This document shows, piece after piece, positions 42,886 through 52,247 of a stretch of 64,000 bases of DNA. The first letter of the stretch is position 1, and every line of letters begins with the position of its first letter. The DNA lies in assembly GCF_900637055.1 (NCBI RefSeq), contig NZ_LR134338.1:425001-489000 (forward strand), written 5' to 3'. The position numbers were made by a program, and so were the translations under genes. The DNA comes from Brevibacillus brevis (GTDB taxonomy: Bacteria > Bacillota > Bacilli > Brevibacillales > Brevibacillaceae). The notes beneath the pieces were generated by a model. The model made no database searches, was not told the DNA's origin, and saw only the letters and a program-made list of their open reading frames with translations.

Positions 42886-42905
42886 TCGGAACCTCCTTTC
42901 GGGCA

Positions 42906-42939
42906 AAATAAAAAACCTCAATCCTTGTAGATTGAGGTT
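42906..42939 (-). terminator. Terminator between mor and the late operon
   Basis: A 10-bp perfect stem AACCTCAATC/GATTGAGGTT (42914-42923 with 42930-42939); on the minus strand it is followed by TTTTTTATTTT. It ends the early/middle transcript just after mor, so late genes need their own Mor-dependent start or antitermination. Confidence 0.8.
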
Positions 42940-43003
42940 ATCATTGGTAGATATTCACATTCCAAAAATGCTCTTGAGAAACTTAATTGATAGAAACACT
43001 TGT

Positions 43004-43342
43004 CTATTCCGCAATATCAAAGATATTCATTTGATCCGGGTGGGGAGTATCCGCTAGGATTTCACGGACCCATGATACCGTGATGTTGTACTTTTGTGCA
43101 AGTTCTTTGTAATTGGCCCCGTTGTATTCGGCTTTGATTCGCTTGTCTCGGATGGATCGGAAAATGGTTTCCTCTTTGGGGAGATAGAGCATGTCGCCAC
43201 CAAATTTCTTGATTAGCTTCAGTGTCGCTTCAATCCCGATGATTTCAGCAATTTCAAGAGCCGTAGAGGATAATTCCTTCAGTGTAACTTCCTGCATCCA
43301 GTCATCGAGCCTGATTTCTTCTTTTTCCTGGGCGAGACTCAT
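43004..43342 (-). CDS. mor: Mor/C family transcription activator
   Basis: A 112-residue homologue of the Mu Mor activator. The C-terminal helix-turn-helix is 'NYKELAQKYNITVSWVREIL' (residues ~75-94). Mor activates the middle/late promoter in Mu. The gene ends ~60 bases before a terminator and just upstream of the late block, as expected for the switch to late transcription. No separate C activator gene was found. Confidence 0.9.
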   Translation of the reverse strand: MSLAQEKEEIRLDDWMQEVTLKELSSTALEIAEIIGIEATLKLIKKFGGDMLYLPKEETIFRSIRDKRIKAEYNGANYKELAQKYNITVSWVREILADTPHPDQMNIFDIAE

Positions 43343-43755
43343 TTTCTTTGCACCTCCTGGCGTTTGCTCATCGCTTTTAGCGCCTCAATGATCTTGTTTG
43401 CCTCGGATCGTGTCTGCGCCCAGGGCTTGCCGATCATCTTTTTGGTAAACCCTTGCTGCCTTTCAGTTTCATGCCAGCCCAGCTCCGCAAATAGCTGCCG
43501 GATTTTTTGAGCTTGCCACGGCCCGACAATTGCGTTCGGGTCTTTCGTTTTGCTCCTGCTCTGTTTGGGCTTCGCGCTGCCTTTGTAGCCAAGCTGTTCC
43601 AGCCGTTTCATTACTTTTCGGAAGCCGTCAAGGGAGAGATCACGGCTGCTGGAGACTCCGGCTTCTTGCTGAAGGATTTGCCTGTACACATCGTCATCAA
43701 GGCTCAAGTCCTTTTTTGCAATGTGGAGGACGGCGAGCTGCTTGCGTTCAATCAT
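43339..43755 (-). CDS. gemA: GemA-like regulatory protein (DUF1018, Mu gp16-like)
   Basis: A 138-residue DUF1018 protein, with the typical 'IHIAKKDLSLDDDVYRQIL'-like N-terminus and 'GPWQAQKIRQLFAELGW'. In Mu, GemA changes host gene expression and DNA supercoiling. It overlaps mor by four bases. Confidence 0.88.
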   Translation of the reverse strand: MIERKQLAVLHIAKKDLSLDDDVYRQILQQEAGVSSSRDLSLDGFRKVMKRLEQLGYKGSAKPKQSRSKTKDPNAIVGPWQAQKIRQLFAELGWHETERQQGFTKKMIGKPWAQTRSEANKIIEALKAMSKRQEVQRK

Positions 43756-44207
43756 ACGGAGACACCCTCCAGTCCAGCCGTTACCTTTTCAATTTTTCGC
43801 TCCAAGACGTCAAACGGGTCATGGTCAATCGGATCACCGTTCATGATGTTGTATTCATGCAACCCGTTTTTAATTTGATCGCGCAGCTCATGCAGGTTCA
43901 AAGCTCGTTCGATCAACTGTAAAATCCCCATTTCTTCGTCTGTAATTCGGTGACTTTCCAGTAAATCAGGCTTTGACTCGGCCCTGGCTGAGATTCTACC
44001 CAGGAAGTAGGTAATCATAACCCCAAAGTAGTGTTCAAACTCAAAGGCATTCATTCGGTTTTTTCGCCATCTTTGGTCAATTTCTTGGGCGTATTTCTTC
44101 CGATTGACACGAGGCTTTGGTTCTTTACGGATACCAAGCATTTCCCGCATTTGTGCGGGCGTCATGCGATCCGTTTTCTTCCGTCTCTTTTTCCGTTTGG
44201 TTGTCAT
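43752..44207 (-). CDS. Hypothetical phage protein, 151 residues
   Basis: A basic N-terminus (MTTKRKKRRKKTDRM) is followed by a helical body. The ATG at 44207 has AGGGGGATGAGG in good position. It follows the ribozyme/hairpin region and precedes gemA. Family not recognised. Confidence 0.7.
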   Translation of the reverse strand: MTTKRKKRRKKTDRMTPAQMREMLGIRKEPKPRVNRKKYAQEIDQRWRKNRMNAFEFEHYFGVMITYFLGRISARAESKPDLLESHRITDEEMGILQLIERALNLHELRDQIKNGLHEYNIMNGDPIDHDPFDVLERKIEKVTAGLEGVSV

Positions 44208-44238
44208 CCTCATCCCCCTATGTATGGTTTCACAGATT

Positions 44239-44266
44239 TTTAAACGGAGTTTAAAAGCCTTTTGAA
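44239..44266. repeat. Phased TTTAAA array 5
   Basis: TTTAAA at 44239 and 44250 and TTTGAA at 44261, exactly 11 bp apart, between the 84-nt hairpin and the 151-residue gene. Confidence 0.65.
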
Positions 44267-44269
44267 ATA

Positions 44270-44353
44270 GGGATATACCCTGAAGATGCTAGGGAGCAGG
44301 AGGAAGGGGTAGTAAAGCTCCTGCTCGTATCCAGCACCTTCAGCGTATATCCC
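44270..44353 (-). ncRNA. Long 84-nt hairpin downstream of hammerhead A
   Basis: Nested complementary arms: GGGATATAC/GTATATCCC (9 bp), CTGAAG/CTTCAG (6 bp), TGCT/AGCA (4 bp) and GAGCAGGAG/CTCCTGCTC (9 bp), with short bulges and a ~15-base loop. It begins one base after the pseudoknot strand of the ribozyme. No T-run follows, so it is not a plain terminator. It may protect the new 5'-OH end made by ribozyme cleavage or help folding. Confidence 0.75.
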
Positions 44354-44354
44354 T

Positions 44355-44421
44355 GACCTGCCATCATCAGGCGAGGAAGGTCATCCCCTCGCGACACCCT
44401 GACGAATCAGGGTGTTTCGGC
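44355..44421 (-). ncRNA. Type II hammerhead ribozyme A
   Basis: Minus strand, in order: GCC (stem II), GAA, stem III (9 bp, 44415-44407 with 44402-44394, TTCG loop), cleavage base C at 44393 (GTC context), stem I GCGAGG/CCTCGC with loop GGATGACCTT, core CTGATGA (44370-44364), an extra T, GGC (stem II), then GGTC, which pairs with GACC of loop I as a pseudoknot. All invariant hammerhead residues are present. Predicted cut: between 44393 and 44392. The 5' half overlaps the last codons and stop of the upstream gene. Confidence 0.92.
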
Positions 44422-44643
44422 TTGTATTGCTGGCTCCATTTTCCTGACGATCAGCGTCAGCTCGTATCGTTCTGCCGGATCGAAGGACCCTACAAACGCA
44501 TTGGCTGCGGTCAGCACCCTCTCGACGTCCTTCCCTTCGATGTTCCGCATGATGTTCAGGGATACTTCTTCAGTAGGCTGGGGAATGGACTTCAATCTCT
44601 TTTGAGGATCGTTACCTCTTTGGCTGCGCGGTGTGGTTGTCAT
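44407..44643 (-). CDS. Small protein downstream of gam, 78 residues
   Basis: A hydrophilic protein, starting on the last bases of gam (four-base overlap). Its last codons (GCC GAA ACA CCC TGA) are also the stem II, GAA core and stem III strand of ribozyme A, so coding and ribozyme sequences overlap. The ribozyme cut would fall 14 bases after the stop codon. Family not recognised. Confidence 0.72.
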   Translation of the reverse strand: MTTTPRSQRGNDPQKRLKSIPQPTEEVSLNIMRNIEGKDVERVLTAANAFVGSFDPAERYELTLIVRKMEPAIQAETP

Positions 44644-45140
44644 TGGGCCTCAATCCTTTCAACTGCTGGTTTATAAAAGAATTTGTCTTTCGTATCGCGC
44701 TTTGCGCCGACTTTTGCGAGGGCCGCATCGTCGTACTTCGCCAACTCATCTTTGTCGATAGACTCTTTGGTGACGATGCAATCAAACATTTTGTTCTGCT
44801 TCAGTGCCTCCAGGATCGCCTTGACGTTTCGGGTGACAATGCTTGTGGTTTTTCGGAAGCCGACTTCTCCAAACGTCAGGGATTTCGTCTTGCTGTCCTT
44901 AAACTCATCAATGCAGGACTCGGTAAAAACCTGGATATGCTGTTCAAGCTCCGCCTTTCGCTGGAGCAGCGGAGTGACCACGGCTTCAGTATCGGCCTTA
45001 ATGTCGTTGATAAGCTGATTCATTTTCGCTTCAGCGGAGGAAACCTGGGCGTCAAGCACACTTATTTCCCGCATCGCTTGGTTGACTTCTTCCCAGCTTT
45101 GGAAAACGGGAGCTGCTTTCTTTTTTGCCAATCTCATCAT
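44640..45140 (-). CDS. gam: Host-nuclease inhibitor Gam-like protein
   Basis: A 166-residue homologue of Mu Gam, which binds DNA double-strand ends like Ku and protects linear phage DNA from RecBCD/AddAB-type nucleases. Central coiled coil ('DAQVSSAEAKMNQLINDIKA') and 'KSLTFGEVGFRKTTS' are typical. Start is ATG 45140 or 45137; the only SD-like sequence, AAAGG, is very close, so initiation may be weak or dependent on the upstream ribozyme structure, which ends 16 bases before. Confidence 0.88.
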   Translation of the reverse strand: MMRLAKKKAAPVFQSWEEVNQAMREISVLDAQVSSAEAKMNQLINDIKADTEAVVTPLLQRKAELEQHIQVFTESCIDEFKDSKTKSLTFGEVGFRKTTSIVTRNVKAILEALKQNKMFDCIVTKESIDKDELAKYDDAALAKVGAKRDTKDKFFYKPAVERIEAQ

Positions 45141-45156
45141 CCTTTGTGTAGTTTTT

Positions 45157-45227
45157 GGCCTGTCATCATCAGAGTGGGTAGGCCATTTCCCACTGACACC
45201 CCCGGAGGGCCGGGAGCGTTTCGACAG
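45157..45227 (-). ncRNA. Type II hammerhead ribozyme B
   Basis: Minus strand: CTGTC (stem II), GAA, stem III (10 bp with two G-U pairs, CCCT loop), cleavage base C at 45195 (GTC context), stem I AGTGGG/CCCACT with loop AAATGGCCTA, core CTGATGA (45172-45166), an extra T, GACAG (stem II), GCC. Loop I GGCC can pair with GGCC at 45160-45157. Stem sequences differ from copy A but all pairings are kept. It sits in the leader of gam. Predicted cut: between 45195 and 45194. Confidence 0.93.
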
Positions 45228-45228
45228 T

Positions 45229-45318
45229 TCAATCAGGAGAGTGAATTTGGATACCTTCCTTGTCAATAAGTTCCCAAAGTTCCTCAAGCGTCATATCTTT
45301 TGGGTCTTTACCAGACAT
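45229..45318 (-). CDS. Very small phage protein, 29 residues
   Basis: ORF starting MSGKDPKDMTLEELWELIDK with ribosome binding site GGAGGAAGTAGAA-ATG. Acidic amphipathic helix. The stop codon is immediately before ribozyme B. No family recognised; the strong ribosome binding site supports translation. Confidence 0.6.
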   Translation of the reverse strand: MSGKDPKDMTLEELWELIDKEGIQIHSPD

Positions 45319-45332
45319 TTCTACTTCCTCCC

Positions 45333-45488
45333 TCAATTCAAGCGTTGGCTTTGTGCATTCCAAGGGGTAAGCCCTCCGCCAACCTTGTAGTTATTCACAG
45401 CAGTGTTAGTCGTGTTCTGCTTGATCCAATCGGATATTTTACGAGGGATAATGACGGGCGGTTTACCCGGCCTGCGCTTCTGGCTCAT
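45333..45488 (-). CDS. Small basic phage protein, 51 residues
   Basis: ORF starting MSQKRRPGKPPVIIPRKISD, with AAGGAGCTGTACAGG before its ATG, which lies inside the end of the upstream ORF in another frame. Basic, probably nucleic-acid binding, but unassigned. Confidence 0.58.
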   Translation of the reverse strand: MSQKRRPGKPPVIIPRKISDWIKQNTTNTAVNNYKVGGGLTPWNAQSQRLN

Positions 45489-45642
45489 CCTGTACAGCTC
45501 CTTCTAATTTTGAATGGAAGAAGATCATATCTTCGATGGTGAATGCACCACGAAACCCTTTGATTTTGCTGTTGTAGTTGTTTGCGTAGTGATCTGCGTT
45601 GCAAGTTCTTTCGATGATGTCAGGCAGATAATCGTATTCCAT
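45463..45642 (-). CDS. Small phage protein, 59 residues
   Basis: ORF starting MEYDYLPDIIERTCNADHYA, with AAAGGAGCTGAAAAGC before ATG. It overlaps the next ORF by 26 bases. Family unknown. Confidence 0.58.
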   Translation of the reverse strand: MEYDYLPDIIERTCNADHYANNYNSKIKGFRGAFTIEDMIFFHSKLEGAVQDEPEAQAG

Positions 45643-45647
45643 GCTTT

Positions 45648-45845
45648 TCAGCTCCTTTTATCCATGTCCACCGCATCATTGCAAGTGGGGCAATGCCTGT
45701 ACAACACATGAGCTTTGAACCGTAGTTTGAATGGCCCCCGATGACCGCAAACGCAGACACCCGGTATTGCATCCCTTTCCAGTGGAGCAGGAAGGGAATC
45801 CCTCTCACGGAAATACTCGCTCAGAACCTTGATGTCACGTTTCAT
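45648..45845 (-). CDS. Small zinc-ribbon-like protein, 65 residues
   Basis: Contains CVCGHRG and HCPTCND, two Cys pairs ~23 residues apart, suggesting a zinc ribbon. It overlaps the helicase-loader gene by four bases (ATGA). Role unknown; early expression is inferred from position. Confidence 0.68.
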   Translation of the reverse strand: MKRDIKVLSEYFRERDSLPAPLERDAIPGVCVCGHRGPFKLRFKAHVLYRHCPTCNDAVDMDKRS

Positions 45846-46741
45846 TTCTTTTTCCTGTAATCATCGCCATGAACAGGAACCACATGCGTCATGCCCAGGA
45901 TTCGGCTCACAATCCGATCCCATCCAGGAAGAGATTCCAGCGTGTCCAGGTCCTCGTTGCTTGTGATGATGGTCGGGAGGTTATTAGAGGCGCGAGCGTT
46001 CAGGATGATGTACACCCGTTCCGTTACCCAAGGCGTGGACTTGCAGGCTCCTAGATCGTCCAGGATGAGAAGGTCCATTGTCTTGAGGGCTTCTAGCATC
46101 TTCTTTGTATCCTGAGACTCATCACCACCGGGCCGTAGGGACTCCATGAGATCGGGAACCGTCGCACAGATGCCAGCGACTCCTTGCCTCATCATTTCCT
46201 GAAGAATGGCATAGCTCAGATGGCTTTTGCCCGTTCCTGGATTACCAAACATAAAGAGTCCGTTTTTCTCTTCGGAACGGAGTTCCTGGAACCGCTCAAC
46301 GTATCGTTTTGCCATGCGCCAAGCTGTATGCTGCTCTGATCCAGGCGCGGCCTCGTAATTCTCAAGACGTTTGTCCAGGTACTTCGCTGGTATTCGTGCA
46401 ATTTTGAAGAGCTTGTCCAGGCGTCTTTGTTCATTTTCCTGAATGAGACATTTACATTCTTTGCGGCGGCAGACGCCATTTTCTTCATCCAGAAAGAGCG
46501 TCCAACCGCTGCCATCGCATTCACGATGCGGGCATTTGTCAGATATGCTCAGTTGAAAAAGCTTGAAATCGTAACACTCGCAGCGCACTTCAGAGCTACC
46601 TTTGCCTGGGAGCTGTACAACCTTCCACATGCTGCCGTCGCACTTATTAAATGGGCAGCTCGCTTCCTGTGACGTAGTGGTCGGCATATTTCCCGCGATG
46701 CTGGCCTTCAGTTGATCCAGAAACCCTTGCAGGCCCTCCAT
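45842..46741 (-). CDS. DnaC/IstB-like AAA+ ATPase (helicase loader type) with N-terminal Cys clusters
   Basis: A 299-residue protein. The N-terminal ~100 residues hold nine cysteines in CxxxxC, CxC and CxxxxC patterns, probably zinc-binding. The AAA+ part has Walker A GNPGTGKS (167-174 counted from an extra upstream codon) and Walker B 'MDLLILDDLGA'. ATG 46741 follows AGGTGA. It overlaps the preceding gene by ~95 bases. It could recruit host helicase for replicative transposition. Confidence 0.82.
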   Translation of the reverse strand: MEGLQGFLDQLKASIAGNMPTTTSQEASCPFNKCDGSMWKVVQLPGKGSSEVRCECYDFKLFQLSISDKCPHRECDGSGWTLFLDEENGVCRRKECKCLIQENEQRRLDKLFKIARIPAKYLDKRLENYEAAPGSEQHTAWRMAKRYVERFQELRSEEKNGLFMFGNPGTGKSHLSYAILQEMMRQGVAGICATVPDLMESLRPGGDESQDTKKMLEALKTMDLLILDDLGACKSTPWVTERVYIILNARASNNLPTIITSNEDLDTLESLPGWDRIVSRILGMTHVVPVHGDDYRKKK

Positions 46742-47093
46742 CAACGATCACCTGCCCATAGTTCTTTTTCTTGAATCCTTCCTGCTGTGCAAGGTTTCTC
46801 AGGATGCCTTGCGTGTAGTTCTCTTTCCTGTCCGGGTACTTGCTTGAGTGGATCACCGCCGCCTGGATAACCAGTTCAGGCGGGTAATCCATGAAGTATT
46901 TAAGCTGTGTTAAAACGACGTTTAAAGCAAGCTTCTCGGCCTTGCGAGTCTTTGCGATGCAAGCAAAGTATGCAGCTAGTTTTTGGAGATCGCTTTCGCT
47001 ATACCTCTTGAGCAGCACATCAGCAAGATGTTGCTGTTCATCGGTCAGAGCGTGTCGGCAAACCCGGAACACACTTTCCTTTTGTGCATCCAT
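46647..47093 (-). CDS. Hypothetical replication-type protein, 148 residues
   Basis: A helical protein; 'YPPELVIQAAVIHSSKYPDR' followed by 'NYTQGILRNLAQQEG' resembles the DnaD-like C-terminal motif that pairs with DnaC-type loaders. The last ~30 residues overlap the loader gene. Early operon. Confidence 0.62.
   Translation of the reverse strand: MDAQKESVFRVCRHALTDEQQHLADVLLKRYSESDLQKLAAYFACIAKTRKAEKLALNVVLTQLKYFMDYPPELVIQAAVIHSSKYPDRKENYTQGILRNLAQQEGFKKKNYGQVIVDGGPARVSGSTEGQHRGKYADHYVTGSELPI
46899..46926. repeat. Phased TTTAAA array 6 (inside a gene)
   Basis: TTTAAG (46899), TTAAAA (46910) and TTTAAA (46921) start 11 bp apart, within the 148-residue gene, the only array fully inside a coding sequence. 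Confidence 0.5.
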
Positions 47094-47102
47094 TCGGATG
47101 AT

Positions 47103-47336
47103 TCAGTCCTTTCGTGTAATGTCGTAGGAGAGGGGGACACCAAACCTTTCAGCAAAGTACATTTCCAACATGAGCAAGCGCCCTGGAGTCATCTTGTCAA
47201 TTTGCTTTTGTATACGGGCCTTGCCTTTTTCGGTGAGGACAAAATCCTCATCAGCTCGTTGGATCAGGCCGTCGTCATCTAGCTGCTGGAACACGCTGGC
47301 GATAAATCGGTCAAGAGTCGCTTTTTCCAAAGTCAT
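47103..47336 (-). CDS. Hypothetical phage protein, 77 residues
   Basis: ATG at 47336 follows GAGGG at eight bases and overlaps the upstream stop (ATGA-type). Helical with 'LDDDGLIQRADEDFVLTEKG', winged-helix-like. Role unknown. Confidence 0.62.
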   Translation of the reverse strand: MTLEKATLDRFIASVFQQLDDDGLIQRADEDFVLTEKGKARIQKQIDKMTPGRLLMLEMYFAERFGVPLSYDITRKD

Positions 47337-47512
47337 CCAACCAGCCCTCTTCTTGCCCACGATCCGCCGCCATCCAGTTGAGTAAGGCTGACCTGACGTT
47401 CAAGTGGCATCCGCTCAACATATCGAATCAGTGTAACGTCATTGCCAAGAATCTCATTGATAATCCATTGCTGACCCTCGAAAGATACAAACTTGCCTTT
47501 CCAAACGAACAT
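47333..47512 (-). CDS. Hypothetical phage protein, 59 residues
   Basis: ATG at 47512 (MFVWKGKFVSFEG) after GGAGGGATCGCCA. Beta-rich small domain. First gene downstream of the transposition genes, behind a terminator hairpin. Family unknown. Confidence 0.62.
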   Translation of the reverse strand: MFVWKGKFVSFEGQQWIINEILGNDVTLIRYVERMPLERQVSLTQLDGGGSWARRGLVG

Positions 47513-47620
47513 TGGCGATCCCTCCATAAAATTTGTTGTCGAAGGAAACACCCTTTCCATCGGAACATCAGCCGTGATATACTGGTCCCTGAAAAGTGAA
47601 TGGATCGGGTGTTATCCCGG

Positions 47621-47653
47621 AAAAAGTCTGAGCCGCTAACTCAGGCTTTTTTT
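47621..47653. terminator. Bidirectional terminator-type hairpin after the MuB-like gene
   Basis: Stem GTCTGAG/CTCAGGC (one G-T pair), with TTTTTTT on the plus side and TTTTT on the minus side. It follows the transposition genes and may limit read-through into the early block. Confidence 0.65.
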
Positions 47654-47660
47654 ATTGCCC

Positions 47661-48560
47661 TCATGCTCCAATCCCCATATATCGCGCCATGTCCATCAGA
47701 CCTTGCAGCTTTACGTTTTGGTTGGCGGCGCTGTTTACATACACGTTGACTGCACCACGAATGCCGTATTTGCTTCTGGAGATTCGCAGCAGGAAGTTTC
47801 GTTCTTCTTCTTGCAGGTGCGGGAACAGCAGTTCCATATCTTCCGGCTGAGTTAGTTCCGTGCGGACATTCTTTCTCATGGAGATGCGAGAGAACAACTG
47901 CGCGAAAGCTGCTTCGCCTCGGCCCGTCATTCGGGTATAAACTTCTTCGTTTCCGATCAGGACCAAACCGACGCCGCTTTCGTCCGCGATGGATCGCAGA
48001 TGATCCAGGGCTTTCAGCGGAAGATGCTGCGCTTCGTCTACGATGATAACCCTGCCGGATTCGACCAGTTTCTCGTTGATCTCTTCATACATCCGACGAA
48101 TGGATCGGCCTTCTTGGACTTTCAGTGCCTTTGCAAGTTTTTCCGTAACACCTTTAGTCGTTCCGAAAGCTGGCGACATAGTGATGACAACCGCTTCAGG
48201 ATGGTTGCGGGCATATTCCCGGATAGCTTCGGTCTTGCCGATCCCTGCGTCGCCGTAGACAATACCTAGCACGTTTGCAACATGGCAGTAAGTGATGATG
48301 TCCAGGACCGCTTGTGACTGAGAAGTATGTACAAAGTCCGGCTTCTGTGGTGCAACCTCCCTGGCCTCGTCAACTGTGAGGAAAGCCCGAATCTTACCAA
48401 AGAGCTTGTGAGGGGATGGATAGGTCTCTTTCAAAAACCGACTGAGAGCCGCAGGCGAGATACCCAACGCTCTTGCTACTCCTGACTGTGACATCCCCGT
48501 TTTTTCCATGTGGTCTTTTATGGCCTGGATCAGTTCCAACCATTCATTGGTGACAACCAT
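47661..48560 (-). CDS. MuB-like transposition ATPase
   Basis: A 299-residue AAA+ protein with an N-terminal helix-turn-helix ('SQSGVARALGISPAALSRFL', residues ~24-43), Walker A GDAGIGKT (103-110) and Walker B VIIVDEAQ (171-178). In Mu, MuB binds target DNA, activates MuA and provides target immunity. It follows the transposase gene by 12 bases, as in Mu. Confidence 0.93.
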   Translation of the reverse strand: MVVTNEWLELIQAIKDHMEKTGMSQSGVARALGISPAALSRFLKETYPSPHKLFGKIRAFLTVDEAREVAPQKPDFVHTSQSQAVLDIITYCHVANVLGIVYGDAGIGKTEAIREYARNHPEAVVITMSPAFGTTKGVTEKLAKALKVQEGRSIRRMYEEINEKLVESGRVIIVDEAQHLPLKALDHLRSIADESGVGLVLIGNEEVYTRMTGRGEAAFAQLFSRISMRKNVRTELTQPEDMELLFPHLQEEERNFLLRISRSKYGIRGAVNVYVNSAANQNVKLQGLMDMARYMGIGA

Positions 48561-48572
48561 GAAAACCGCTCC

Positions 48573-50507
48573 TTACTTCTTGGTTTTTTGAGCCGCACTT
48601 ATCATGCGAGATAGGTTAATGTTATTGGTTTGGCCCACAGCTTTTTTGAGAGGAGCTGCTTCGACTTTCCGCTCACCTGAACGAACCGGAGAGAGGACTT
48701 TTGCTTCAGCTTCAGTTGCTTCCTCAAGATTCTTGCGGGCTTGTCCCATCACAAGGTCCATTGGATCGGGTGCGTAAATTTCTGCGACAAGTGCTTCCTT
48801 GTAAGCTTTTACGCGCTTCTTAATCTTCTTGGACTCGCTTGCCACGTTCTTAATATCTTCCTTGCTGGCCCCGTATTCCAAAGCCTTTTTATGTGTGGCA
48901 GTCATCAGGAAACGGTCCTCCAGGTCATAGACCCGAACCTCTCCCAAATTCGCCGGATCGAATCGGACATAGACTTTCTTGCCGCGATACTGAGCAACAA
49001 GCTCTGTGTCGTAAAAATCGAGACCGTAACCGTAAAGCGTAAGCCGGACACCGTTTCTGCCAACCGTAACTGGCTTGGAAGAACGCATCAGCATCAGGTC
49101 TAAGTCCTCCGGCAGCGCAGTGCGTTTTTCAATTAACTGCTCGGCATATACTTGGTGTGGTGTTTTGCCGTTCATCCCATCGCCATAGTGTGGTTGATGA
49201 TCCAACCAGCCAAAAGCGAAGGTTTCAAAAGCTTCCGCAAACTCTTCTTCCGTGACGATGTTGTTCGGGTCTTTTAAGATTTTTAGCAGCCGCTCTGGAC
49301 GCTCCTTGACATGTCCACCCTGATAGGTGAGGAACAGTTTGGAGAAGTTTTCTTTCACTTCCCTGAAGGTCCGTTCAACCAGTTTCGCCTTTGCATTTTT
49401 TACCTTGGCATTCATCATTCGGATGCCCAATCGCTCAAACACCGCAGGCGGTTTGTGTTCACCATCGTTTTTCTTTGTCTTGCGCCGTCCACGTCCTCCA
49501 ATGTCGCTTGCGAGGAAGTCCATACCGTTGTCGGTGTAGACCACTTTGGGGATGCCATACTTGAGGATGCCTTTCCGTATTGCCAGGAGGTTTGTATCGG
49601 AGTTTGGGTTTTCAGATACGACAATGGACATTGTTTTTCGGCTTCGGACATCGGTGTACATGGTTACTTGTGGGCGATAGGTTGATCCGTCTGGACGCCT
49701 TACCACTACGTCAAACTTATGGTTGTCTGCGACCCAAATATCATTGCTTGCAAGTCCTTGATAAGAACGGCGGGCAAATGGTGCGACTTTATCATCGAAG
49801 TCTTTTTCGCCGTATCTATACATGCGGATGACTGCATAGGGAATGGTTGTGATCCTTCGCTCGAAAGCCTTACATGATGGTAACGGGCCGAAGTTGTTTT
49901 CCTTGGCCCAAATGCTCACCCATCTGTAACACGCTTGGGCGCTGGGCCTATTCTCATCAAGGTAATACTGCTGAAATATACTCCAGACCACCTCGGGTAT
50001 AGTTGACTCACCACGATTCCAACCGCCTCGGCGATCTACTAGGGCAGCGTCTCCCTGTTCCATCCAGGACTTGTATTTCCGATGTAGCGTTTTGGCTGTC
50101 ACTTGATTTTCAGGATGGGCAAGATTCCAGTTTTCGCAGAACATTTCATCAAGCTCAGCTTTGGTCATTCCAGGTTGAGATCGGAAGGCTTGCCACTGAT
50201 CGAAGCACTTTCTCCAGTAACCAATTTGCTCACGCTCTTGATCGCTAAATACTTCAAGTGGAGCTTGCGCTTTTTGATCCGTGCTATTTTCAACTACTTC
50301 TTTAAACAACTTGACTGCTTTTTTCTGCGCCTGGATCGGGAGAGAAGAAACAGGGATTTGATACTCAATTCCTCCGCGCCCTCGCGTTCCAGTTTTTACA
50401 GCATTAGCTTTTAGCTTGTTGCTACTGATTTGCTTTTGTACCGCTCGCTCGGATATGCCCATGAGACGAGCGGTTTCCTTGACGGTTAAAAGTTGCAACT
50501 CGCCCAC
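48573..50507 (-). CDS. MuA-like DDE transposase
   Basis: A 644-residue transposase. Residues 1-55 hold a Mu-type DNA-binding helix-turn-helix ('TVKETARLMGISERAVQKQI'); the rve core has catalytic Asp261 (VADNHKFD), Asp326 (YTDNGMDF) and Glu379 (KLVERTFRE), matching the D269/D336/E392 pattern of MuA; the Mu transposase C-terminal beta-barrel and a basic tail follow. It performs integration and replicative transposition using the end sites at 20254-20298 and 53362-53455. Confidence 0.96.
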   Translation of the reverse strand: MGELQLLTVKETARLMGISERAVQKQISSNKLKANAVKTGTRGRGGIEYQIPVSSLPIQAQKKAVKLFKEVVENSTDQKAQAPLEVFSDQEREQIGYWRKCFDQWQAFRSQPGMTKAELDEMFCENWNLAHPENQVTAKTLHRKYKSWMEQGDAALVDRRGGWNRGESTIPEVVWSIFQQYYLDENRPSAQACYRWVSIWAKENNFGPLPSCKAFERRITTIPYAVIRMYRYGEKDFDDKVAPFARRSYQGLASNDIWVADNHKFDVVVRRPDGSTYRPQVTMYTDVRSRKTMSIVVSENPNSDTNLLAIRKGILKYGIPKVVYTDNGMDFLASDIGGRGRRKTKKNDGEHKPPAVFERLGIRMMNAKVKNAKAKLVERTFREVKENFSKLFLTYQGGHVKERPERLLKILKDPNNIVTEEEFAEAFETFAFGWLDHQPHYGDGMNGKTPHQVYAEQLIEKRTALPEDLDLMLMRSSKPVTVGRNGVRLTLYGYGLDFYDTELVAQYRGKKVYVRFDPANLGEVRVYDLEDRFLMTATHKKALEYGASKEDIKNVASESKKIKKRVKAYKEALVAEIYAPDPMDLVMGQARKNLEEATEAEAKVLSPVRSGERKVEAAPLKKAVGQTNNINLSRMISAAQKTKK

Positions 50508-50522
50508 GGTCTGCCTCCTTCC

Positions 50523-50837
50523 TTATTCAGCTTTTTGGCTTGTTTCTGTAGATGAATGATTGTACTGTTCCCACTCCTTGCTACTTTCCGAATACTTGGT
50601 GTAAATATCGTTGTAAAGACTCATCAGATATTCACGGCGTTTAGTTAGGAAAGAAATTTGAGTGCTTAACTCTTCAATTTCGGGTGTTATCTGTGCCGCT
50701 ATAGAAGCACAATGCAGCATGATAGATTCATGATGTTTCCTGTATGCTGAATTTTTCTTCGTTTCGTCAATAGTCGCCAAAGATTTCAACATTACGGATA
50801 GATCGCTGGGGTGGATCAGATGAGGCTTTTCGTTCAT
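50523..50837 (-). CDS. Hypothetical early phage protein, 104 residues
   Basis: A helical, coiled-coil-like protein between the Ner-like regulator and the transposase gene. Stop and transposase start are 15 bases apart. No family recognised. Confidence 0.65.
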   Translation of the reverse strand: MNEKPHLIHPSDLSVMLKSLATIDETKKNSAYRKHHESIMLHCASIAAQITPEIEELSTQISFLTKRREYLMSLYNDIYTKYSESSKEWEQYNHSSTETSQKAE

Positions 50838-50859
50838 TTAACTCCCTCTTTCAATCGAA

Positions 50860-51093
50860 TTACTCCGCTTTCGGAAGGCGGCGCTCCGTGAACAAAATGT
50901 CATCTATCAATTTTCGATACTTTTTTGCTGGTCTTGTCCCAGAAATGAGGTCTGACATTCTGTTTTCGGGAATTCCATTCCGTTCGCAGAATTCTTTTTG
51001 ATCCATCTGCAATTCAGCCAATCTTGTTTTGATCGCCCAGCCATATGGAGTGATTGGCTTTTTTCTCAACAAATTTCTCACCTCCATCGACAA
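50860..51093 (-). CDS. Cro/Ner-like helix-turn-helix regulator
   Basis: A 77-residue protein with 'MDQKEFCERNGIPENRMSDL' as a XRE-type helix-turn-helix. It is the first gene of the early operon and divergent from the repressor, the place of ner in Mu or cro in lambda, so it probably shuts down repressor and early transcription. Its coding region contains two further TTCCG-n4-CGGAA-like operator matches. Confidence 0.8.
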   Translation of the reverse strand: MSMEVRNLLRKKPITPYGWAIKTRLAELQMDQKEFCERNGIPENRMSDLISGTRPAKKYRKLIDDILFTERRLPKAE

Positions 51094-51164
51094 AGTAAGT
51101 CATAGTCAGATTGATAGTGCTACGCTATAATTTGTGGTAACTCACTTCCCACAATTTCATTTTA

Positions 51165-51178
51165 CTCCGAATACGGAG
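51165..51178. promoter_or_regulatory. Putative repressor operator O1
   Basis: CTCCGAATACGGAG, an inverted repeat with a 4-bp spacer, in the divergent region between the Ner-like and repressor genes. Confidence 0.65.
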
Positions 51179-51194
51179 CGAACACAATACTTTT

Positions 51195-51210
51195 ATTCCG
51201 TTTTCGGAAT
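51195..51210. promoter_or_regulatory. Putative repressor operator O2
   Basis: ATTCCGTTTTCGGAAT, a perfect inverted repeat with the same half-site (TCCG/CGGA) and spacer as O1, 30 bp from it centre to centre. Related sites lie at 50864-50875 (TCCGCTTTCGGA) and, imperfectly, at 50958-50972. Confidence 0.68.
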
Positions 51211-51233
51211 GAAATTTTAGGGGGAATTAAAAA

Positions 51234-52247
51234 ATGGCACTACTCAAACGGAGTGATATTGATATGACAACAACTTTCGGGGAGAGGTTAAGGGAGCTAA
51301 GAACCGCAGAAAAGCTTTCAATGGATGCGTTAGCAAAAGAAATCGGAACTTCTTCAAGCAGAATCAGCGACTGGGAAAACAAAGGAGGCGATCCATCCTC
51401 CGTTTTCGTAGTGAGACTTGCCGAGAAGTTTGGCGTCACTCTGGAATGGCTCCTTACTGGAGAGGGACCTAAATACAAAAACACTGAACCTCCAGTTGTT
51501 TTAGACACCAATGTCTGGAACAACATTTTTTCGGGTCAAAAACGGGAATTGAGTACCCAATACGATGAGAGTATCAACAGAAGAACCATGATTATTTCTC
51601 ATAGACAAGGAAGCGGAAAGACTGCATCGACTTTATTTCTCAATAATCCTCTTTATTCCGCTATAAGCGCACTAGACAAAGAAGATATCGAGCTACTTAC
51701 TCCGCTAATAAAAAGACTCGCTCAGAATAAAGCACCTCGCGAATTCACCCAACAGATGGGTAGAGGCACACGGATCACAGGTCAAATTATCGCTGAAGAT
51801 AGAGAAACGGGTTATGAAGATGAAGGAGAGACTTTTGTTGAAATTCCTATCTTGGGACAAGCTGCTGCTGGCGTACCGATCTCAGTATTTAGGCTAATTG
51901 ATGGGTATATTAAAGTGCCGGAACAATATAAGAATTGTTTCTCTGTCCGTGTTCGCGGAGATAGTATGGTAGGTGCTGGTATTAAGGATGGTGGCTATGT
52001 CGTTGTGAGGCAGCAAAACGCCGTTGATAATGGAGACATTGCTTTAGTTATGATTGGGGGAGCTGACGAAGAGGAAGTCACCATCAAGAGATTTAAGAAA
52101 GACGGTAACAAAATTCATTTAATTTCCGAGAACGACAGGTATCAACCCCTTATTTACGGAGCAAATGACGGAGTGCATATCCTGGGCAAAATTGTTGAGT
52201 GGTTTTCACCTGAAGAAGCTGTATCCAGAATGAATCAAACGATATAA
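51234..52247 (+). CDS. LexA/cI-like self-cleaving prophage repressor
   Basis: A 337-residue protein: XRE helix-turn-helix (residues ~14-70, 'MDALAKEIGTSSSRISDWEN'), a ~130-residue linker, then an S24 peptidase domain with cleavage site Ala212-Gly213 (GQAAAGVP), catalytic Ser244 (RGDSMVG) and Lys285 (TIKRF). It should keep the prophage silent and self-cleave with RecA after DNA damage. ATG follows AGGGGGAATTAAAAA. Mu's own repressor is not of this type. Confidence 0.92.
   Translation: MALLKRSDIDMTTTFGERLRELRTAEKLSMDALAKEIGTSSSRISDWENKGGDPSSVFVVRLAEKFGVTLEWLLTGEGPKYKNTEPPVVLDTNVWNNIFSGQKRELSTQYDESINRRTMIISHRQGSGKTASTLFLNNPLYSAISALDKEDIELLTPLIKRLAQNKAPREFTQQMGRGTRITGQIIAEDRETGYEDEGETFVEIPILGQAAAGVPISVFRLIDGYIKVPEQYKNCFSVRVRGDSMVGAGIKDGGYVVVRQQNAVDNGDIALVMIGGADEEEVTIKRFKKDGNKIHLISENDRYQPLIYGANDGVHILGKIVEWFSPEEAVSRMNQTI

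Follow-up and report, generated by a model that had tools for sequence, protein, structure and literature searches.

Results

Early operon of the Mu-like prophage

We analyzed a window of 64,000 nucleotides (positions 425001-489000) from the genome of Brevibacillus brevis (GCF_900637055.1), which consists of one contig of 6,726,998 bases (NZ_LR134338.1); all positions given below are those of the window. Its minus strand carries an early region in which MuA, MuB, Gam, GemA, and Mor follow one another in order, together with a DnaC-like loader (Table 1), and these Pfam and PHROGs matches confirm what the initial annotation had read from the sequence alone, namely, that gam belongs to the early polycistronic operon of a Mu-like prophage. 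Gam is a protein that binds DNA ends, and its gene has two start candidates here, ATG 45140 or TTG 45131. Downstream of Mor, a terminator-like stem of 11 bp is followed by a T-run (42939-42914, minus strand), while the other minus-strand terminator-like matches within the operon are weak and the total over 42900-51300 is no higher than in shuffled sequence.

Two ribozyme-like elements in sense orientation, HHR1 and HHR2, flank gam and the small gene that follows it. HHR1 is placed between a 29-codon open reading frame (ORF), whose stop codon lies 3 nt ahead of the 3-bp stem II, and gam, and the stop codon of the 78-codon gene (44409-44407) falls within stem III of HHR2.

Table 1. Features of the prophage early operon and of the two hammerhead elements (window positions)
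Feature	Position	Strand	Basis or remark
Early operon, Mu-like prophage	43004..50507	-	MuA to Mor; Pfam and PHROGs matches
MuA	48573-50507	-	Pfam/PHROGs
MuB	47661-48560	-	Pfam/PHROGs
DnaC-like loader	45842-46744	-	Pfam/PHROGs
29-codon ORF	45229..45318	-	Sequence reading; stop 45231-45229; not present in L013
HHR1, type II hammerhead	45154..45226	-	RF02276, 37.6 bits (match 45226-45154)
HHR1 stem III	45219-45196	-	
HHR1 C17	45195	-	
HHR1 stem I	45194-45173	-	
HHR1 CTGATGA	45172-45166	-	
HHR1 extra U	45165	-	
HHR1 stem II	45164-45162 with 45225-45223	-	GAC with GTC
HHR1 pseudoknot	45156..45185	-	Possible pairing of loop I UGGCCU (45185-45180) with tail AGGCCA (45161-45156)
Predicted 802-nt RNA	44393..45194	-	HHR1 stem I hairpin at start, HHR2 stem III hairpin at end; putative cleavage product
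gam, Mu Gam-like protein	44640..45140	-	PF07352, 3.6e-36; phrog_491, 6.3e-37
78-codon gene	44407..44643	-	ORF; phrog_23385, 4e-4 (family without known function)
HHR2, type II hammerhead	44352..44422	-	RF02276, 40.4 bits (match 44422-44352)
HHR2 stem III	44415-44394	-	
HHR2 C17	44393	-	
HHR2 stem I	44392-44371	-	
HHR2 CTGATGA	44370-44364	-	
HHR2 extra U	44363	-	
HHR2 stem II	44362-44360 with 44421-44419	-	GGC with GCC
HHR2 pseudoknot	44354..44383	-	Possible pairing of loop I UGACCU (44383-44378) with tail AGGUCA (44359-44354)
Near-perfect 84-nt hairpin	44270..44353	-	Immediately 3' of HHR2, ahead of the 153-codon gene; fold and alignment
153-codon gene		-	ORF; 3' of HHR2 and the 84-nt hairpin, before GemA
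GemA	43339-43755	-	Pfam/PHROGs
Mor	43004-43342	-	Pfam/PHROGs

Anatomy of the two hammerheads

The two minus-strand elements had been proposed to be type II hammerheads, with a covariance-model search as the check. In a genome-wide search (6,726,998 bases) against Rfam, both match RF02276 (Hammerhead_II) above the curated gathering cut-off of 37 bits, HHR1 barely so, by 0.6 bits, and no further RF02276 match was found. Direct reading recovers the invariant core (CUGANGA, GAAA, A15.1-U16.1, and H17) and a GTC cleavage triplet in each element, with predicted cuts at C45195/A45194 and C44393/G44392, 802 nt apart, exactly at the sites and spacing given in the initial annotation; both elements are very probably able to cut themselves. 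Stems I and III are closed by loops and stem II is open in both copies, as in the type II layout. The stems measure, for HHR1 and HHR2, respectively, 10 and 9 bp (stem III), 6 and 8 bp (stem I), and up to 5 and 3 bp (stem II), the value of 5 bp applying if A45161 and G45160 pair with C45227 and T45226 and not within the pseudoknot. Folded alone, stem III reaches -16.4 kcal/mol in HHR1 and -13.7 kcal/mol in HHR2, and stem I reaches -7.1 and -10.7 kcal/mol. The isolated fold of HHR2 displays stems I, II, and III; when HHR1 is folded alone with its flanks, by a program that cannot model pseudoknots, its two pseudoknot strands pair into a nested hairpin in preference to stem I. Both copies carry an extra unpaired U between A9 of the core and stem II, so that stem II does not abut the core. 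This extra U recurs in L028 and L047 and in the downstream copy of the related phage contig L014 and is missing from the upstream copy of L014.

A feature that the initial annotation had left unmentioned is a pseudoknot between loop I and the tail following stem II, for which 6 bp are possible in HHR1 and in HHR2. One of these pairs is G-C in one element and A-U in the other, and the pairing is thus kept through a two-sided change. More generally, a pseudoknot of at least 4 bp is possible in 375 of the 452 distinct hammerheads among the matches listed, compared to a mean of 170 and a maximum of 194 over 100 shuffles of the tails.

Directly after HHR2 lies a near-perfect 84-nt hairpin, and the stretch 44262-44426, hammerhead stems included, folds at -83.5 kcal/mol (z -7.7). 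The hairpin exists in a single copy in the genome, its 19-base loop pattern was found only in L013 and L014 among the viral contigs, and its arms, compared by eye to those of L014, display one two-sided change that keeps pairing, several one-sided changes, and one broken pair. It has no T-run and matches no Rfam family at threshold; a mir-2756 match at 44267-44358 (28 bits against a gathering cut-off of 61) was dismissed as a chance match of a long hairpin. This hairpin may cap or mark the downstream RNA. Moreover, a mobile repeat carrying the ribozymes was considered and rejected for this genome, which holds two copies only, with differing stems, and the hairpin only once.

Conservation in sister phages

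A close Gam is encoded by eight viral contigs, of which the nearest are L013 (98% identical Gam) and L014 (90%), and in both of them the same hammerhead pair flanks gam and the 78-codon gene. Excluding gaps, HHR1 is identical to the window at 71/72 positions in L013 and 70/71 in L014 (98.6%, with 4 to 5 gap columns) and HHR2 at 71/71 and 68/71 (95.8 to 100%, with 0 to 2 gap columns), compared to 454/492 and 400/492 for gam (81 to 92%) and 132/164 and 94/164 for its third codon positions (57 to 80%). Ribozyme identity is hence above gam identity in the sister phages. The 84-nt hairpin and the stretch that follows it are identical at 82/84 and 45/46 positions in L013 and at 71/84 (84.5%) and 34/50 (68%) in L014. 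Since L013 is 98 to 100% identical all the way from HHR2 across the hairpin to the following gene, conservation there is not specific to the ribozyme, and it is the L014 comparison alone, with HHR2 at 95.8% against flanks at 84.5% and 68%, that singles it out.

The cassettes beside HHR1 have been gained or lost among these phages: the 29-codon ORF is not in L013, and ~159 bases are inserted between HHR1 and gam in L014. HHR1 of L014 is nearly unchanged, lacking one base 3' of the core and another at loop III. Between HHR1 and gam, L014 also holds an additional small ORF with CxxC-type motifs (L014:3820-3960) that is not in the window.

In the six other viral Gam relatives (50 to 69% identity), no hammerhead was found at E values up to 1, with L017, L018, and L019 ending short on one side of gam; L017 and L018, whose Gam rows are identical, may represent one phage. 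The order of gam and the 78-codon gene is kept in L015, L016, and L020 (viral) and in L021 and L022 (genomes), where no hammerhead was found, which argues that cleavage is not essential for gam expression. A search of the viral contigs with the 78-codon protein returned only L013, L014, and one weak partial match.

Placement of phage hammerheads

Pattern scans of viral contigs yielded at least 233 loci with a type II hammerhead, a sample chosen for holding the motif. In 17 of these 233 loci, the pattern matched and a stricter structural descriptor did not. The descriptor found 436 type II hammerheads in the 2.2 Mb of these loci and 3 in the same loci reversed, and the motif is therefore not a chance one. 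The form with the extra U makes up 178 of the 436 descriptor matches, a biased count, as one pattern scan had asked for that form. Two or more hammerheads on one strand within 3 kb occur in 88 of the 233 loci, among the matches listed.

Placement was examined on 369 distinct hammerheads among the matches listed, 67 of the 436 having been removed as duplicates or as lying near a locus end. Of these 369, 295 have the stop codon of a sense ORF (at least 60 codons) no farther than 40 nt from their 5' edge, 253 have a Shine-Dalgarno sequence and a start codon directly 3', and 200 have both features, again among the matches listed. The mirrored places on the opposite strand gave 70, 12, and 2, respectively, and 1845 random places gave 390, 105, and 35. 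For 231 of the 369 listed, the nearest stop codon is 10 nt or less from the 5' edge, compared to a random expectation of ~21; the start codon, where found, lies at a median of 19 nt beyond the pseudoknot tail. Neighboring hammerheads 150 to 2000 nt apart form 204 pairs over 89 loci, which include genome loci as well as the window and its sister phages. The median distance is 560 nt among the matches listed, and a sense ORF with a minimum of 40 codons lies within 199 of these 204 pairs. The factor common to the phage hammerheads examined is thus their placement between the stop codon of one cistron and the Shine-Dalgarno sequence of the next, and this sense placement is a quantitative rule that any functional account must explain.

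Longer series also exist, as the viral contigs L169 and L234 hold runs of six type II hammerheads per phage region, with mostly small ORFs between them.

Genes enclosed by hammerhead pairs

In a stricter-filter search of 398 Bacilli genomes, RF02276 was found in 18 and PF07352 in 22, and among the places listed, the two lie close together only in the window's own genome; in G227 and G347, they are on separate contigs, so that closeness cannot be judged there. Around the 24 other PF07352 loci of this sample, the structural descriptor found no type II hammerhead, and Rfam found no RNA family at threshold within ~1.5 kb on each side of the 20 loci covered (all but L068-L071). In an Rfam scan of 10 gam loci (six from genomes and four viral relatives), hammerheads appeared in L028 only, a Ruminococcaceae genome bin in which the pair, 800 nt apart, precedes MuA instead of flanking gam; L025 and L027, to which the structural descriptor alone was applied, gave no hammerhead by this method. 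Conversely, a gam-like gene is present in 3 of the 233 hammerhead-bearing viral loci, among the matches listed, and one of these, L166, is the L013 contig.

Pairs do recur in Mu-like phages: they lie upstream of MuA in L028, L104, L131, L143, and L205, between MuB and GemA in L089, and between gam and GemA in L312, while the hammerheads of the Mu-like loci L096, L157, L178, and L284 are single or far apart. With pairs at such varied early junctions, gam is one enclosed gene among many. We therefore abandoned gam as a preferred hammerhead partner, and a special link with gam was not supported, the bracketing pair being found only in the window, L013, and L014 among the gam loci examined.

Among 111 enclosed proteins scanned (a sample of 110 out of 183 together with Gam of the window), 66 PHROG families were matched, and of the 25 listed, 3 have a named function and most have none; 16 Pfam families were matched, with Gam coming solely from the window. 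The variety of the enclosed families, among those listed, indicates that no single gene type explains the pairs.

Discussion

We propose a model in which HHR1 and HHR2 are genuine type II hammerheads that probably act as cotranscriptional cistron separators, leaving hairpin-ended RNAs in the Mu-like early transcript. Each element would fold and cut itself as the RNA polymerase passes, dividing the early RNA of ~8 kb into three: MuA, MuB, the DnaC-like gene, and small genes would fall on the upstream piece, gam and the 78-codon gene on a middle product of 802 nt, and the 153-codon gene, GemA, and Mor on the downstream piece. Because stems I and III of a type II hammerhead are both closed, each cut would fall between two hairpins, so that stem III, carrying a 2',3'-cyclic phosphate, would terminate the upstream RNA, and the first base of stem I, carrying a 5'-OH, would open the downstream one. 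Hence, the gam RNA would start in a 5'-OH hairpin and end in a cyclic-phosphate hairpin; a separate RNA with these ends is plausible from the sequence and has been proposed earlier for prophage pairs generally. From what is known generally of bacterial mRNA turnover, we infer that hairpin-capped ends devoid of a triphosphate would resist decay, likely uncoupling the stability and level of the gam mRNA from those of its neighbors. Moreover, ribosomes translating the upstream cistron would cover the 5' half of each element, and cutting may thus depend on upstream translation, a coupling suggested by the positions of the stop codons.

This cistron-separating role draws support from the placement of the phage hammerheads counted above, from the higher identity of the ribozymes than of gam in the sister phages, from the hammerhead pairs at Mu-like early-operon junctions in L028, L089, L104, L131, L143, L205, and L312, and from the precedent of cleaved tandem sets in bacteria (PMC3088659). 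Against it stand the score of HHR1, so close to the cut-off, the extra U, the competing fold of HHR1, the sharing of bases between stem II and the pseudoknot, and the more distant phages in which gam and the 78-codon gene occur and no hammerhead was found.

The same geometry could instead serve to lower expression, the cuts exposing neighboring messages to RNases or removing their leaders, with gam kept low until upstream translation blocks cutting. Such down-regulation, which we regard as unlikely, would agree with the stop codons crowded within 10 nt of the 5' edges (231 of the 369 hammerheads, among the matches listed) and with the 78-codon gene terminating within stem III of HHR2, where ribosomes would unfold the element; however, the new ends would be hairpins, which are usually protective, and the stop placement may simply reflect the compactness of phage operons. 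If the elements were inactive relics, or passengers moving with cassette exchange at cistron junctions, their patchy presence (they were not found in related phages of the same gene order) and the coming and going of cassettes around HHR1 among the sister phages would be expected. Relics should nevertheless lose the pseudoknot and the core, and here all three phages retain a complete core, stems, and pseudoknots in HHR1 and HHR2 alike, at an identity exceeding that of gam, so that we give very little credit to this explanation.

Two further possibilities concern what might become of the cut ends. The proteins of the RtcB family join 5'-OH to 2',3'-cyclic phosphate ends, and the host encodes two of them (G000:C1:2092280-2093554 and 6547113-6548426, E values of 1.9e-118 and 1.9e-86). 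An excised 802-nt RNA, as also raised in the initial annotation, could be joined end to end into a stable circular gam RNA, to which the chemistry of the ends would be suited if cleavage occurs. The two routes to such a circle fare differently: the 5' strand of HHR2 stem II (GCC) forms only 1 bp with the 3' strand of HHR1 (GAC), which disfavors self-ligation by a re-formed hammerhead, whereas the two RtcB copies would still allow ligation by a host protein. Altogether, we consider a circle rather improbable. The reverse chimera, between the 5' half of HHR1 and the 3' half of HHR2, reaches 5 bp including a G-U in the window and in L013 and 4 bp in L014, and the outer halves might therefore be religated, splicing gam out of some transcripts. 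Hammerheads, however, favor cleavage over ligation unless docked. Across the 204 pairs, a stem II of 3 bp is reached in 139 circle-compatible and 146 splice-compatible combinations, compared to ~74 and ~79 with random partners; these frequencies are about equal, with no clear preference for splicing, and shared descent alone would explain them. Perreault et al. (PMC3088659) reported that spliced and circular products both escaped detection. Of all the fates and roles considered here, splicing appears to us the least probable.

Beyond this locus, the cistron-separating role of the gam pair leads to a broader and more tentative proposal, whose chances we put clearly lower, in which type II hammerheads would be a general operon-splitting device of phages, ribosome sensitive and hairpin capping. 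A terminating ribosome would hold the 5' half of the element open, its departure would permit the cut, and after cutting, the upstream mRNA would end in a hairpin and the downstream mRNA would start with one bearing a 5'-OH. If true, one early transcript could be divided into units of differing lifetimes and a single function could be assigned to phage hammerheads, with the gam pair as a clean test case. The gam locus indeed offers a compact natural test, in which a gene of known role stands between two nonidentical ribozymes at a distance of 802 nt. Nevertheless, type II hammerheads are matched in frequency by types I and III in bacteria (PMC3088659), and capping at both ends is thus no general requirement.

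The arrangement described here is of a kind known in phages since 2011, and the locus adds one case to that set; what is newly added is the specific gam case with its conservation data and the placement count. Perreault et al. (2011; PMC3088659) described natural type II hammerheads with a pseudoknot in the majority, as well as prophages in which several hammerheads surround a single gene or a short block, and reported that three tandem bacterial sets were cleaved in vitro, one of those in Escherichia coli too; they proposed processing into gene-length mRNAs as well as circularization. Our elements resemble theirs (RF02276) in the core, the permutation, the pseudoknot between loop I and the tail, the prophage setting, and the flanking of single genes and differ by the extra U in both copies (also seen in other phages) and by an enclosed block that holds gam. 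The triple hammerheads at Agrobacterium ardA, cleaved in vitro and in E. coli according to the same source, likewise stand in succession around single phage-related genes, although the enclosed genes differ. That source also mentions, for haloviruses, a variant hammerhead 13 nt upstream of a start codon, a precedent for proximity to start codons.

A 2023 study (PMC10085705) mentions an unexplained enrichment of bacterial hammerheads and twisters in the vicinity of Mu-like phage genes and of other ribozymes; our pair shares both kinds of neighbors, and the enrichment statement itself names no pair bracketing gam. A 2017 review (PMC6155905) treats the role of prokaryotic hammerheads as an open question. 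A hammerhead pair around gam was not found in our literature search, which covered sources other than the two likeliest ones.

Tandem hammerheads also characterize the retrozymes and viroid-like circular RNAs, in which they release mostly noncoding repeat units through ribozymes able to religate. The predicted release of a unit RNA is common to both; however, in the window the ribozymes are not alike, they enclose coding sequence, and the stem II halves of the excised unit, pairing at 1 bp, are mismatched for a circle.

Other type II hammerheads encountered in the course of this work are arranged differently. L085:7058-7925 (G102:C20) holds seven in tandem and L086:9050-9530 (G235:C1) about four, at a spacing of 122 to 150 nt, with short, G-rich, C-poor spacers that look noncoding. 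Both arrays lie directly 3' of an HNH-type nuclease gene, recognized by Pfam in L085 and by eye in L086. A Replic_Relax match and a weak TraG-like one were additionally obtained in L085. Unlike the phage pairs, the two arrays would yield RNAs of ~120 to 150 nt. Finally, another group of type II hammerheads is present in L003-L011, from the window's genus and family, most of them sharing the flanks AGTCGAAAC ... ACATA; these stand one per place, with up to three per genome, in genus relatives without a gam match.
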